A stretch of DNA of 40,322 bases from a virus (IMGVR_UViG_3300023184_000260:1-40322), one strand, 5' to 3'; numbered from the stretch's first letter, positions 1 through 5,313 are shown. Translations and numbers: made by a program. The notes: a model not told the origin generated them from the sequence alone.

Positions 1-992
1 CCACAGTCTAACTCAAGGAGGTCTCCGTCTTCAAAGATAGCCCCGAGAAGGTCTCCGTCTGCCTCTCTGTAAGACTTCTTAACCTCGCCTCCTCCAGCCA
101 TTTTTAGAAATTTATTAACCCGAGCGATAGCCCAAGCATTACGAGAATTAGGTGCACCTCCGCTTATGGTCGGTCTGTAGCTAGTAGAAAAAGCTCCCGC
201 ACCCCTACGAAAGACTTTTTTCAAAGTTCCGAGAGAGGGAGCGTTGCGGTTGGGATGCCTTTTCTTGAAGTCGGCAATCTTGTTTCTTAGGGTTTCCTCT
301 ACTTGCTCCGATACTTCTATGCCTCCAGATTCGCTTCTAGTGGAAGCGGTTCCTTCGGGATTCTTGTCGGAGCCTTTGATTCTATCCTTCTTTGGAGCGG
401 GTGTTTGAGAAATAGTTCGGGCAAGTTCCTTTGAGTCGTCAGTTAGCGGCCCCCCAACAATCCACGCAGAACAAGTTCTTTTGCTTGCACACTTAAAATC
501 AAAAATTTCGCAGTATCCAAGATGTCCAGCTTCTACAACTTCTCCAGCGTCTTCACCTATACCCTTCTTAATACAATCGATAATCTTTTTCTTAACATTG
601 AAAGCGGAGCAATTACCACAGAGCATTTTCTTGGCTGAGGCTACATCCCCACCAAACTCTTTGGCTTTAGCCTTCCAATAGTCCTCGTTCGGCTCATTTG
701 GGTTCTGCGGCCCATATTGAGCAACGTCGATTGCTTTTTTTCTATTGGCTAAGTTGGTTTTAACGTCTTGGGTCGCTAGGGGGCAGGAATCTTTTTCTGT
801 TGGTTCCTCGAGTTGTTTAATGCTTTGTGGTATTTTTGTGCCAGTCATCTTCTCGTATTCGTCTACCCCGAACATCGCTATAGCGTCTTTAATCCGCTCC
901 TCCTCCGTCTTGTTGAGTTGCTCGATAAGCCCATCAATGTAGTCGTCATCCTGCTTTTTGTAAGCTTTATCGATTTCAGAAAGCTGTTGCAT
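1..992 (-). CDS. Cys-rich phage head-module protein (partial, runs off the window)
   Basis: Open from an ATG at 992 to the window edge with no stop, at least 330 residues. It begins MQQLSEIDKAYKKQ and has an acidic helical N-terminus. A Cys-rich segment follows at about residues 125-175, with CGNC, a later IDC, GYC, FKC and RTCSAW. Six cysteines in this layout suggest a metal- or iron-sulfur-binding site, but I cannot assign the metal. A later segment (FRRGAGAF...RP...NAWAIARVNKFL) resembles a module that recurs in phage head proteins of unknown function. The visible end carries a short DGDLL tandem repeat. The start overlaps the end of the ART/zeta gene by 17 bases, so the two are probably translated together. 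Its place after the portal suggests a structural or head-assembly role. That role is inference from position. Confidence 0.8.
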   Translation of the reverse strand, partial: MQQLSEIDKAYKKQDDDYIDGLIEQLNKTEEERIKDAIAMFGVDEYEKMTGTKIPQSIKQLEEPTEKDSCPLATQDVKTNLANRKKAIDVAQYGPQNPNEPNEDYWKAKAKEFGGDVASAKKMLCGNCSAFNVKKKIIDCIKKGIGEDAGEVVEAGHLGYCEIFDFKCASKRTCSAWIVGGPLTDDSKELARTISQTPAPKKDRIKGSDKNPEGTASTRSESGGIEVSEQVEETLRNKIADFKKRHPNRNAPSLGTLKKVFRRGAGAFSTSYRPTISGGAPNSRNAWAIARVNKFLKMAGGGEVKKSYREADGDLLGAIFEDGDLLELDC

Positions 993-3270
993 AAGTCTCC
1001 TTTACTCTTGGTGTTTGGCCTTTTCCCTTATCTGCGTTGCCGTCTATTTGATAGCCAATATCTGCAATCCCACCGTCCGTTAGCCTTCTCCAAGTGGCTG
1101 AGGCTTGTACTGCTGAACCCTTGATATAGCCATAAGGAACGTAGCGTCCGTTCGGTTTTGCAAATCTTTTACCCGCCCGAGTAAGTGCGTTCTTATCATT
1201 TACGTCAACGTGCACAATTCCAATTTTATAACCCCACGACTTAAGAAGGTTCGCCATTCCTTCAACCTTACCAGTATTTTTACCAGTAATATCGATAATC
1301 ATATTGTGACGAGCACCCATAGCCATAGGAAAGATTTGCTTCTCTGAGATGAATGAACTCTCTTCGTGAAAAGCTCCAGCGTTCCATCCTTCATATCCCT
1401 TAAGCTGTGCCTTGACTGCGTCGGGGTCAATGATTGTTACTTGCTTGCCTCCTAGAATCTTGTCTGCATAGGGTCTGCCCACGGTTGTTTTGCCCGAGGC
1501 TGGAGAACCCATAAGAATAACCGCAATAGGATTTTCGGATACCGCTTTTGGGTTTAGCTGAGATTCAATAATCTTCTTATTGTATTCTTTTGTTTCTTTC
1601 GTTGGATTTTGAAAGGTCTGCACGATGTCTGCTGATTGTTTGTACTTGCTTGGGTCTCTTAGACTCCAATGCGTTACAGAGGCTAATTTATTATTTTCAT
1701 CCTTAGCAACCTTTGCCTGCAATACTGCCATCTTCTTTAGGGTTTCAACTACTTTTGGGTCTCGATTTAATTTGTCTATAAGTCTTTGGGCTTGTCTTTC
1801 GTTTCTGGCTTCTTGTGCTTTTGTAGCCCTTCCTACCCCTCCGCCACCCGAACCGCTCCATCTGCCCCTCTCGTCCCTCTGCTGAGAGGGGTCGTAAAAC
1901 TCTATCGGAGTGTAGCCCCTGTAATAATGTAGCCTGCCCCTTTGGAGGGAGTGGTGAATACGAGTCGGGAATTTTGTTTCGTAGCTTCGGATATTTTCTT
2001 GGTAAGCTCGTTCTCCGTCTTCTCTGGTATCTCCACCGATAAACTCGCCAATACCTCTGACTGAAATTGCTGTTGCATTTAATGCTCCTAGTATATTGGA
2101 AACTTTAGTCAACAAGGACGCTCCTTGGTCAAGGATAGTTACGTTTGTCTTCTTTTCGTTTCCCACCAAAGTTCTAAATTTGATTCCATTTTCTGTCAAT
2201 ACCTTTCTAACTTCTCCCATTCCAAGCTGAGATGTAATTTTATGAAGAATGTCGTTTCCATTTTCTTTTTCTTCAAACGCTATGACTGCTTTTTGTTGTA
2301 GCTTTGAGCCTAGCTTAGATGCCGTATATTTAATCTGGTCGAAGTCCTCTCCCTTAACCTTCATAATAATGGAGTCTTCCGCACCATCTTCCCAATCTCC
2401 AACTCCACTCTCTATCTCTGCCGTCATCTTCTGCTTTTCGATTATGCTCTTAGCCATCTTCACAGCCTCAGCGTGTTTTGGACTATCTTTTTCCGCAACT
2501 GCCTGCGGAAAGGTCATATCTTCCCTAGTATTTGGAGATACCATAATCTCACCACTTCCAGTCCATCTACCGCTCGAATCCCTATCCTGCGATGGGTCGT
2601 AGAATGCAATCCTACTTTTTATAGGCTCCTGAATTAGAATAGGCACATAGATTAAACCCTCTTCACTCGCTAGGTTTTTTACTGCGAGGGGTTTTGGTTT
2701 GCTTCCGTTCTCGTAGATATATTTTCTAACACTATCAATATCAAATATCGACATAGTCTTTATGTTCCGAGGATGTACCGAGCCGTCTTTTACAAATATC
2801 TTAGAAACTGCGGCCATACCAGTCTTGCCCATCATTTGTGATTTCTTGCTTGGTATATTATCTGCCACGCTTTTGAACCCTTCGGCCAATATGCCGATGA
2901 TTCCTATAAGTTGTTTCCCCCCGATTTTGCTAGTTTTTCCACCACGCAACGCTCCGTATTCCATCGCCAAATCCATTGAGTCCGTAGAATATACTTTCCC
3001 GCCACCCCATACCCCTTCCTTGCTTGGTTTAATTCCCTGCTCTCGAATCGACTTTAATGCCTGAGCAGAGGTTCCGTGATAAAGCATCGTTGTCTTCTCA
3101 CCAGTTTCCTTGCTAGCCCTCTCTGGATTATCTTGTGCCCACTTGGGAGTAGTAGTCTGAGCATTCGAACCCGAACCTCCACCCGAACCAGTCCACCTCC
3201 CGCTAGAGTCACGATCTTGCGATGGGTCGTAGAAATTGATCTGCCTTGAATTATAGCAAAGCGAGATCAT
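976..3270 (-). CDS. Three-module protein: ADP-ribosyltransferase-like, unknown, and zeta/P-loop kinase modules, each after a shared tag
   Basis: 764 residues directly after the portal (5-base gap; AGAAGGA upstream of the ATG). The tag FYDPSQxRDxxGRWxGSG occurs at residues 13-30, 223-240 and 458-475. Module 1 (about 62-180) has LYHGTS followed by an I...G segment and VYST, like ADP-ribosyltransferase folds whose first motif is YHGT. Module 2 (about 245-440) is unrecognised; it contains a GDWEDGAEDS segment. Module 3 (about 480-764) has Walker A GSPASGKT at 588-595, IDPD near 614-617, HEESS and a later NMIIDITGKN, typical of zeta-toxin-type kinases, which phosphorylate UDP-N-acetyl sugars or related substrates. 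No toxin-antitoxin partner is visible. The position after the portal suggests a virion-associated or ejected cargo protein. That role and the possible processing at the tags are inference; the kinase assignment is firmer than the ART one. Confidence 0.88.
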   Translation of the reverse strand: MISLCYNSRQINFYDPSQDRDSSGRWTGSGGGSGSNAQTTTPKWAQDNPERASKETGEKTTMLYHGTSAQALKSIREQGIKPSKEGVWGGGKVYSTDSMDLAMEYGALRGGKTSKIGGKQLIGIIGILAEGFKSVADNIPSKKSQMMGKTGMAAVSKIFVKDGSVHPRNIKTMSIFDIDSVRKYIYENGSKPKPLAVKNLASEEGLIYVPILIQEPIKSRIAFYDPSQDRDSSGRWTGSGEIMVSPNTREDMTFPQAVAEKDSPKHAEAVKMAKSIIEKQKMTAEIESGVGDWEDGAEDSIIMKVKGEDFDQIKYTASKLGSKLQQKAVIAFEEKENGNDILHKITSQLGMGEVRKVLTENGIKFRTLVGNEKKTNVTILDQGASLLTKVSNILGALNATAISVRGIGEFIGGDTREDGERAYQENIRSYETKFPTRIHHSLQRGRLHYYRGYTPIEFYDPSQQRDERGRWSGSGGGGVGRATKAQEARNERQAQRLIDKLNRDPKVVETLKKMAVLQAKVAKDENNKLASVTHWSLRDPSKYKQSADIVQTFQNPTKETKEYNKKIIESQLNPKAVSENPIAVILMGSPASGKTTVGRPYADKILGGKQVTIIDPDAVKAQLKGYEGWNAGAFHEESSFISEKQIFPMAMGARHNMIIDITGKNTGKVEGMANLLKSWGYKIGIVHVDVNDKNALTRAGKRFAKPNGRYVPYGYIKGSAVQASATWRRLTDGGIADIGYQIDGNADKGKGQTPRVKETYATAF
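1846..1899 (-). repeat. Tag repeat 3 (FYDPSQQRDERGRWSGSG)
   Basis: Third, diverged copy, just before the zeta-kinase-like module. It keeps FYDPSQ, RD, GRW and the GSG end, and changes D to Q, SS to ER and T to S. Confidence 0.93.
2551..2604 (-). repeat. Tag repeat 2 (same 18-residue peptide)
   Basis: Second copy, between the ART-like module and the unknown middle module. The peptide matches copy 1 at all 18 positions. Only the stretch encoding FYDPS is also identical at DNA level. Confidence 0.95.
3181..3234 (-). repeat. Tag repeat 1 (encodes FYDPSQDRDSSGRWTGSG)
   Basis: First copy of an 18-codon repeat, at the N-terminus of the multi-module protein just before the ART-like module. The peptide is identical to copy 2, but 8 of the 18 codons differ synonymously between the two. 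Confidence 0.95.
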
Positions 3271-3275
3271 CTAAG

Positions 3276-5279
3276 TTATTTTCCTTCTCTGGCTTTGTTT
3301 AGTTGATCTACGACAACCTTTGATCTGGCGAACCCTGCGTCTCCACCCCATCCGTTCCAAGCTTGCCACCCCTTACCCTTCTCATCCCAACTGCTTCCCT
3401 GCTTATCGACTTCGTGACGAGTAAAGAAATTCTTCATACGCCTCCAGCTTCTAGGGGATAATCTCTTGGCATTGATTATGTCTCTTGCCCTAGCAACGCC
3501 AACTTGTGTCATTCCCCGCTGGCTAGCTGGTTTCGTCGCACGCACTCGTAGTGCTGACTTTGCGGCTTCAATCATTCCAGCGTTGGGAGATAAATCTATA
3601 TCACCAAGTGCCTGCATCTCGATAGCGTCCAAGATCATCTCAGCTTCTCTAGTCGTGATAGCCTTCGGTGTTCGCCTTGCTCTGGTTGGAACTTCCTCTT
3701 CGGTGTCTTCTTCTTTGTCGTCTACTTCCGATTCATCATTTGTGTTAGGCACGTCTGGCAATTTGGCCTCCGCCACGGAGGGCAATGGGGCTTGGGGCGG
3801 AGCTGTCGGCTCAGAGGGCTTAAAAGAGTCTGAAATACTTTCGATAGGGATTTCCATTTCTTGAGCAAGGTCGGTTGCAATGCGAACTTCCTTGGCTCTT
3901 TGTCTGATAGATTCCTCATAGTCTTCTCCTTTGCTTCCGTAAATTTCAGTCATTGTTCGGAGTCCAGCTTTGAACTCAGCGATGGCACTCTGTGAGTCAC
4001 GCCCTACGTCTATGGTTGGGTCGGCGGGATATATCCATTTGCCATTTCTATAGTTAGCACTTGGAGGGATTTCCCCTTTGCTCATTCCGTCTGCGAGCAC
4101 CAAGTTCTTAACCCTGTCAAAAAATCTATCTTCCATAATTGACTGCCAACGTTTGAAGGTTCGGGAAGCGAGGGACATTTCCAGCCTCACGGTTGGGCCG
4201 CCGAGCTTAGAAAGGTCGTAGCAAAAACCGAATGGGAGGTTGAATGCTAAGGCAATCAAGTGAACCATTAAGTCCACATAACCTTGGAAAGCCGATGAGG
4301 GGCGATTACTTTCGAACATTTTCATTTCGCTACCCGAGGGCAAGTAGTTGATCTGCGACTTCTGCATCGTCTCGAGATTCGTTAGGTTGCCGTATGCGTC
4401 TGTGTTGGCTTGGTTAAAATATGAGGATGGGTCGTCTGCTTGTCCGCTGGAGTTGGCGATGGTCATAATCCGCATCGCCGCGTTCTTGACTGCCATTTGC
4501 TCTGCGTCGAGCGTCTCCTGCAAGTCCTTACATTGATTAATGATTGATGCTAGATGGCTACGTCCACGCACTTCGTCGAGCCTCAAAGGGTCATAGATTA
4601 GAAGGAAAGACTGAGCGGGAACTATCTGCGGGTCGGTATAAGAGTTACCTTGTGTTCGACGATAAACTTTGTATCCAGTTGTCTTTCCGTTTGGGTCAAA
4701 GCAAACTCCCCCGATATATTCTTGGTTAGCTGTCGGCACATCTATGTTCCCACCAATACGATCTGCCTCTACGCTTTGTAGTGCTAAAGGGCTATTTGGG
4801 TCTGCGATTCCATTCGAGGTCTCTTGTCTGGTAATTACGAACCCAACATCTCCATCTCTAAGCACAGAGCGGAGGGCAAGGTGTGACAAGGCGTGGAAAT
4901 TGTGTCGTCCTAAGTAGTCAGCTTTCTTGCACCAGTTCTCCCAATACTTTTCGTAAGCGTCATCTATCTGGTTATTTCCAGTCCTACTAGAGTAGCGAAA
5001 CTGCCCGAGGGCATACTGACTGAACTTCAAAAGGATGCTACGAATGATTGAATTGTTGTCCTCTAGGTCACGTGCCGCACGTATCAACTGAATGCGTTCG
5101 AACGTTGAAGAGAATCCCTCTCCGCCACTTAGTATTCTGGATGGTGCACGATCTGTAAGGGTATACGCACCAGCAAATCTGTTGAACTCCACTAACTTAC
5201 ATTTGTCTGCTAAACGTTTGATTCCAAAGGCGGGATTTACCGAGGATACAATTTTCTCTATGAAGTTCAGGTTGGGCAT
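3276..5279 (-). CDS. Phage portal protein, lambda gpB family, with C-terminal extension
   Basis: About 667 residues. It forms the dodecameric portal ring at the capsid vertex through which DNA is packaged and ejected. The N-terminal two thirds match lambda-type portals: RILSGGEGF...RIQLIRAARDLEDNN, ALRSVLRDGDVGFV, VEADRIGG, and a late LPFGFCYDLSKLGGPTVRLEMSLASRTFKRWQ segment near residue 380. After an acidic, Pro-rich linker (about 500-540) comes a C-terminal domain ending RRMKNFFTRHEVDKQG...AWNGWGGDAG. This module occurs in phage head proteins but is not part of the basic portal. The ATG at 5279 is chosen; an in-frame TTG at 5285 is the alternative. Neither has a clear Shine-Dalgarno site. 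It sits between the gpW-like gene and the ART/zeta gene, matching the lambda order A-W-B. Confidence 0.92.
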   Translation of the reverse strand: MPNLNFIEKIVSSVNPAFGIKRLADKCKLVEFNRFAGAYTLTDRAPSRILSGGEGFSSTFERIQLIRAARDLEDNNSIIRSILLKFSQYALGQFRYSSRTGNNQIDDAYEKYWENWCKKADYLGRHNFHALSHLALRSVLRDGDVGFVITRQETSNGIADPNSPLALQSVEADRIGGNIDVPTANQEYIGGVCFDPNGKTTGYKVYRRTQGNSYTDPQIVPAQSFLLIYDPLRLDEVRGRSHLASIINQCKDLQETLDAEQMAVKNAAMRIMTIANSSGQADDPSSYFNQANTDAYGNLTNLETMQKSQINYLPSGSEMKMFESNRPSSAFQGYVDLMVHLIALAFNLPFGFCYDLSKLGGPTVRLEMSLASRTFKRWQSIMEDRFFDRVKNLVLADGMSKGEIPPSANYRNGKWIYPADPTIDVGRDSQSAIAEFKAGLRTMTEIYGSKGEDYEESIRQRAKEVRIATDLAQEMEIPIESISDSFKPSEPTAPPQAPLPSVAEAKLPDVPNTNDESEVDDKEEDTEEEVPTRARRTPKAITTREAEMILDAIEMQALGDIDLSPNAGMIEAAKSALRVRATKPASQRGMTQVGVARARDIINAKRLSPRSWRRMKNFFTRHEVDKQGSSWDEKGKGWQAWNGWGGDAGFARSKVVVDQLNKAREGK

Positions 5280-5313
5280 ATGCAAGGATTATACGTATAG
5301 TATTTTATATCAA

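Follow-up and report, generated by a model that had tools for sequence, protein, structure and literature searches.

The viral contig IMGVR_UViG_3300023184_000260 (40,322 nucleotides, analysed over its whole length and termed the window) carries, between positions 976 and 3270, a gene for a 764-residue protein in which three enzyme-like modules each stand behind a copy of one short peptide. The question raised by this locus is what such a peptide, here called tag 1, is for. Tag 1 and a second, interchangeable tag described below recur before unrelated enzyme-like modules and on portal, MuF and head-protease proteins of many unrelated phages, which suggests a label, not named before, that marks proteins as cargo of the phage head. 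The three tags and the open reading frame (ORF) reported in an initial annotation of the window were recovered, with the FYDPSQ starts at residues 13, 223 and 458. A codon comparison bears out that copies 1 and 2 are the same at 18 of 18 residues while 8 of their 18 codons differ, every change being synonymous; copy 3 departs from both at four residues. When the whole window was scanned in all six frames, the pattern RD..GR[FWY] did not occur outside the three tag copies. The gene lies directly downstream of a portal gene, as previously described, with 5 bases separating the two, and terminase and head-tail adaptor genes lie beside them; it is thus encoded among virion genes.

The 764-residue chain holds at least two distinct effector-type domains, namely a zeta kinase, a probable ADP-ribosyltransferase (ART) and a middle module, M2. 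Sequence and fold comparison confirm module 3, initially described as zeta-kinase-like, as a predicted kinase of the zeta family. It matches Pfam Zeta_toxin (1.6e-17), contains the Walker A motif GSPASGKT at residues 588–595 and retrieves crystal structures of epsilon/zeta and PezAT in Foldseek, the best being 1gvn (4.2e-9, template modelling (TM) score of about 0.55 over 200 residues). Module 1 (ART1) is, judging from its sequence, probably an ADP-ribosyltransferase. The initial label of ART-like draws on weak Pfam matches to PARP (6.8e-4) and Tpt1/KptA (0.03), both under the curated cut-offs, and on the signature YHGT (64–67) and VYST (93–96), which is invariant as YHGT...VY[SA]T across eight aligned relatives; in the full-length model, the module is poorly folded. 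M2, first listed as unknown, has no match in Pfam, yet its AlphaFold2 model is confident (predicted local distance difference test (pLDDT) 88, predicted TM score (pTM) 0.83) and adopts a double ferredoxin-like domain. Matches of M2 to the PDB are weak, show nothing beyond a ferredoxin-like fold and do not point to a function; by fold, M2 also resembles large phage polyvalent proteins, with E-values down to 3.6e-10. In the model of the full-length protein, good folds are obtained for M2 and the zeta module, and the tags and their flanks mostly have pLDDT values below 50, indicative of disorder. The modules therefore look like separate domains on disordered connectors, and not like one inert structural fold.

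Tag 1 is not confined to this gene. Searching IMG/VR viral contigs with the back-translated core DPxQxRDxxGRW yielded at least 120 viral stretches, compared with 8 for the same codons in reversed residue order; tag 1 is therefore not a product of chance. A hidden Markov model (HMM) made from the core-pattern matches detected 228 tags in 175 ORFs at 120 loci, with the consensus [FY]DP[SDN]QPRDExGRW[TS]xGGG. Glycine-rich stretches follow the tags. Among cellular genomes, sampled as one per species (84,980 bacterial and archaeal genomes), the pattern occurs in 67 stretches; 45 of these loci match the HMM, about 42 of them with clear scores. They belong mostly to alphaproteobacteria and actinobacteria, with single matches in other phyla, and include candidate prophages of Methylobacterium, Bradyrhizobium and Caulobacter. 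A search for the tag in plasmids gave no match, and neither did a tblastn search of cultured phages with the tag 1 peptide of the window. The tag 1 consensus returned only weak, tag-like matches from cultured phages, in Mycobacterium phages of the Konstantine and Predator kind and in Nocardia phage P3.1. The proteins in question start with MSFNPRQPRDRFGRW in Konstantine (L133:4001-4774) and with KFNPRQPRDLRGRW in P3.1 (L134:3989-4699). Their annotation as “maturation protease” was not used, since no obvious protease is present in either sequence.

The modules behind tag 1 are highly diverse. Clustering of the 223 post-tag modules by sequence at 1e-5 gave 98 groups, 68 of which are singletons. 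A Pfam scan of 187 non-redundant modules returned ADPrib_exo_Tox (11), Zeta_toxin (8), DUF7178 (8), ART-PolyVal (5) and MuF (5), together with PBECR1/3, ParB_N, Acb1, CDI_toxin_EC869, CdiA_C, Tox-REase-5, DRAT and GNAT. The modules that can be named are thus mostly effector or toxin families. Among untagged neighbouring ORFs (n = 130), most of the families that can be named are terminase, portal, head and protease proteins, with one CDI_toxin among the families listed, and effector families of this type were absent from the 61 ORFs of control loci. In line with the initial annotation, the tag thus marks enzyme-like modules of many kinds that lie close to portal and capsid genes, and it does so in phages that are not related to one another. 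As a separate observation, the anti-CBASS protein Acb1 adjoins tag 1 in one module and in two pre-tag parts, which would fit a virion-carried counter-defence.

Many tags are found behind head proteins within the same polypeptide. Among 101 non-redundant parts preceding the first tag 1, six are MuF proteins and about 26 are portals from four Pfam families, of which one protein can match two. Single ORFs consist of a portal (90–404), tag 1 at residue 769 and PBECR3 (822–879, below cut-off) in L012, of a portal (111–440), tag 1 at 475 and DUF6883 in L055, and of MuF, PBECR2, tag 1 at 445 and a further module in L106. The initial annotation had stated that short tags of this type sometimes begin phage head-associated proteins. 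Some tags do lie near the N-terminus of free proteins, but the tags are often internal, with one per module behind portals, MuF proteins or prohead proteases. Compared with a single portal family, 15 of 40 records gave a match; many of the records are incomplete, and measuring the distance to the portal in each record would take all four families. In L002, L037, L072 and L104, a further tagged small gene with a U9 or U93 module lies on the other side of the portal, and tagged genes therefore flank the portal on both sides. The record of L034 (G033) has four successive Phage_portal matches between 2496 and 8717 of a 19-kb contig, two of them above cut-off.

A second tag can take the place of the first. 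Tag 2 has the consensus [ND]CGTGAGGF[KQ]PGN[TD]CAKGGG, is unrelated in sequence to tag 1, and its pattern was found in at least 120 stretches of viral contigs; the tag 2 peptide had no match in cultured phages. In close relatives of the window gene (L211–L213), LDCGTGAGGFKxGNTCAxGG replaces tag 1 before M2, before ART1 and behind the leader of the gene. The same leader can hence run into either tag, with MISLCYNSRQIN followed by FYDPSQ in the window and MTSLCYNSKRVE followed by LDCGTG in L213. L024 and L047 use both in a single chain, which has one copy of tag 2 and four or five copies of tag 1. The parts before tag 2 (n = 62) comprise about 33 portals of three Pfam families and 4 S78 prohead proteases, and the modules behind it include ART-PolyVal, ADPrib_exo_Tox, zeta and GNAT. 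In L289, an S78 protease, tag 2 at residue 247 and a zeta kinase form one ORF. In L211–L213, L042, L203 and their relatives, either tag is often directly preceded by a short element resembling YN[SG]x[KR]x[IV]E, which is seldom seen in the wider set (7 of 177) and was set aside.

Modules are shuffled, split and fused at the tags. The order ART1-M2-zeta of the window becomes U2-M2-ART1-zeta in L014 and L024, to which L047 adds one more tagged module, and ART1-U2-ART2 in L042, L072 and L103. In L203, zeta is a separate tagged gene, and L237 has an additional, separate ART2-like tagged gene. Relatives of the window gene all adjoin the portal wherever the portal region is in the sequence examined. 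Essentially every module in this family keeps tag 1 or tag 2; the exceptions listed are regular-expression cut-offs, L205 and L238, in which the gene is broken or restarts close to a module, and a pair of giant polyvalent proteins. Tag pairs within the same ORF differ at a synonymous proportion (pS) of 0.80 and a nonsynonymous proportion (pN) of 0.16 for tag 1, and at 0.72 and 0.05 for tag 2, the pN values being biased low since the tags were found via fixed residues. With synonymous sites near saturation, the tag copies are therefore old and kept as peptides, in support of the selection on the peptide proposed in the initial annotation.

Portals, MuF proteins and prohead proteases are components of the phage head. 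According to two earlier studies, effectors of the polyvalent and MuF kinds are presumed to be injected (PMC5512222, PMC5576092). Given these carriers and effectors, and the precedent of head targeting in T4 and P1, the tagged modules can therefore be read as head cargo. We lean towards the view that they are head-cargo effectors of the polyvalent kind and that the tags are junctions for release in head maturation. A tagged module would enter the procapsid via a carrier, be it portal, MuF or prohead protease, or via the tag itself. The tag would be the junction where, by cleavage at or next to it, the module parts from its carrier and from neighbouring modules during head maturation. Each freed enzyme would then exit together with the DNA and act on the host at an early stage of infection. 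In many tailed phages, the tag pair would mark effector modules, whether these are encoded by genes of their own next to the portal or fused to head proteins. Since each module has its own tag, even where it follows a protein that is already in the head, a junction role is favoured over loading alone, although release and loading may both be true. A junction left by gene fusion also fits internal tags better than a pure loading signal.

Several points weigh against tags as release junctions of head cargo. The first tag lies at or before residue 60 in 49 of 144 5'-complete ORFs, where a cut would release little; near the N-terminus of free proteins, loading therefore fits better than cleavage. 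A known prohead-protease consensus was not identified at the tags. M2 occurs untagged in the giant polyvalent proteins L217 and L218, and the ART call for module 1 comes from weak profile matches to which the model added no confirmation. The bias in pN noted above counts here as well.

Among the alternatives, tags could be loading signals comparable to the capsid targeting sequences of T4 and P1, which would bind a procapsid component and stay uncut. Standalone proteins tagged near the N-terminus are consistent with this, for instance in L158, where three tandem small genes each start with MAGFDPNQPRDEIGRW. The internal proteins of T4 are diverse defence proteins with only the targeting sequence in common (PMC3012670), and for P1 DarB a stretch of 30 N-terminal residues is sufficient to target the capsid (PMC9024508). 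However, tags also sit behind portals and prohead proteases, which are themselves already head components, although such fusions could be remnants of gene fusion, and a tag is kept once per module in one chain, where a single signal would do. We thus regard uncut loading signals as an unlikely explanation of the tags.

It is more doubtful still that the tags are flexible, glycine-rich inter-domain linkers inherited with the modules and devoid of a recognition function. Their disorder in the model, the glycine-rich stretches after them and the exchange for an unrelated tag would all suit a linker. A passive linker, however, would have no need to keep a fixed FDPxQPRDExGRW or CGTGAGGFxxGNxC core in phages and modules that are unrelated, nor would it hold its peptide while synonymous sites approach saturation, and where a tag starts a free protein there is little to link. 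Finally, a DNA-level homologous-recombination site for module swapping was rejected as highly improbable on the codon divergence between tag copies: module order and gene borders do shift exactly at the tags, but copies within one gene have diverged at the majority of their synonymous sites (8 of 18 codons for copies 1 and 2; pS 0.72–0.80), so that DNA identity is not what is kept, and the same borders can be occupied by either of two tags with unrelated sequences.

A broader proposal can be made only tentatively. At least two interchangeable tags could form a general cargo code that marks modules as head cargo across unrelated portals and capsids in phages of several bacterial phyla, which we consider possible rather than probable. 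Were such a code real, effectors could swap between phages and carriers without re-evolving a targeting system. To our knowledge, it is understood only in a few model phages how the proteins that travel in the head are picked. A recurrent tag would turn the choice of head cargo into a sequence search, and would help to find injected effectors in metagenomes, including Acb1, ARTs, PBECR nucleases and many nameless modules. Effector proteins of this kind, polyvalent or MuF-like, have been described before; what looks new is the pair of tags as a marker shared across phages. Neither tag string occurred in the openly available literature searched, where absence is not proof, and term searches of PMC5512222 and PMC5576092, the founding papers on these effectors, brought up no such tag.

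The features of the locus are compiled in Table 1. The neighbouring gene at the window edge is also part of the tagged system. In L122 (9266-11521), its homologue is longer and goes on with a U2 part, followed by tag 1 and an ADPrib_exo_Tox module (1e-11). Together with the tag 2 at the window edge, this longer homologue indicates that the phage has a second tagged gene.

Table 1. Positions of the tagged gene, its tags and modules, and the adjoining genes in the window.
Feature	Position	Strand	Residues or extent	Basis or remark
Gene for three-module protein, tag-ART1-tag-M2-tag-zeta	976..3270	(-)	764 aa	ORF
Tag 1 copy 1, FYDPSQDRDSSGRWTGSG	3181..3234	(-)	13-30	
Module 1 (ART1), probable ADP-ribosyltransferase	2605..3174	(-)	33-222	Weak Pfam matches and conserved motifs
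Tag 1 copy 2	2551..2604	(-)	223-240	Same peptide as copy 1; 8 codons changed synonymously
Module 2 (M2), double ferredoxin-like domain	1900..2544	(-)	243-457	AlphaFold2 model and fold matches
Tag 1 copy 3, FYDPSQQRDERGRWSGSG	1846..1899	(-)	458-475	
Module 3, zeta-type kinase	979..1839	(-)	478-764	Pfam, Foldseek and Walker A
Portal protein, lambda-type	3276..5285	(-)		Phage_portal_2 8e-49; phrog_21
Next gene: Cys-rich part, DUF5824-like part, tag 2 (LDCGTGSGGFKAGNTCSKGG) at window edge	3..992	(-)	Open at window end	

Comparing the window protein with known systems reveals similarities to four of them. Module 3 has the same kinase fold and Walker A motif as the zeta toxins of epsilon/zeta and PezAT (PDB 1gvn, 3q8x, 2p5t). 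However, the kinase of the window comes at the end of a chain of three tagged modules that is encoded beside a portal, and, in agreement with the initial annotation, no epsilon- or PezA-like antitoxin was recognised in the adjacent genes (the portal gene and the DUF5824-containing gene), in which region small ORFs were not exhaustively searched. With the MuF polymorphic toxins (Jamet et al. 2017, PMC5576092), the window gene shares its position after the portal and its toxin-like enzyme modules, and some tagged proteins elsewhere do have MuF. The window protein differs from them in that Pfam finds no match to Phage_Mu_F, in its several effector modules per chain and in the lack of a recognisable immunity gene.

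The phage polyvalent proteins are likewise multi-domain proteins with ART, zeta-like kinase, PBECR and further effector domains that are encoded with virion genes, and effector fusions to MuF and portal have been described for them (Iyer et al. 2017, PMC5512222). M2 of the window gene also matches their domains by fold. Compared with these proteins, the conserved tags, one per module, and the tag pair are the new element here. In T4 internal proteins and P1 DarB, capsid targeting sequences are short peptides that bring otherwise diverse anti-host proteins into the head (PMC3012670, PMC9024508); among the P1 Dar proteins, no targeting consensus was found (PMC9024508). The tags are common to unrelated modules, putative head cargo, beside or on head proteins. 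Whereas the T4 and P1 sequences are N-terminal and known from single phages, the tags extend across unrelated phages, are often internal and accompany each module.

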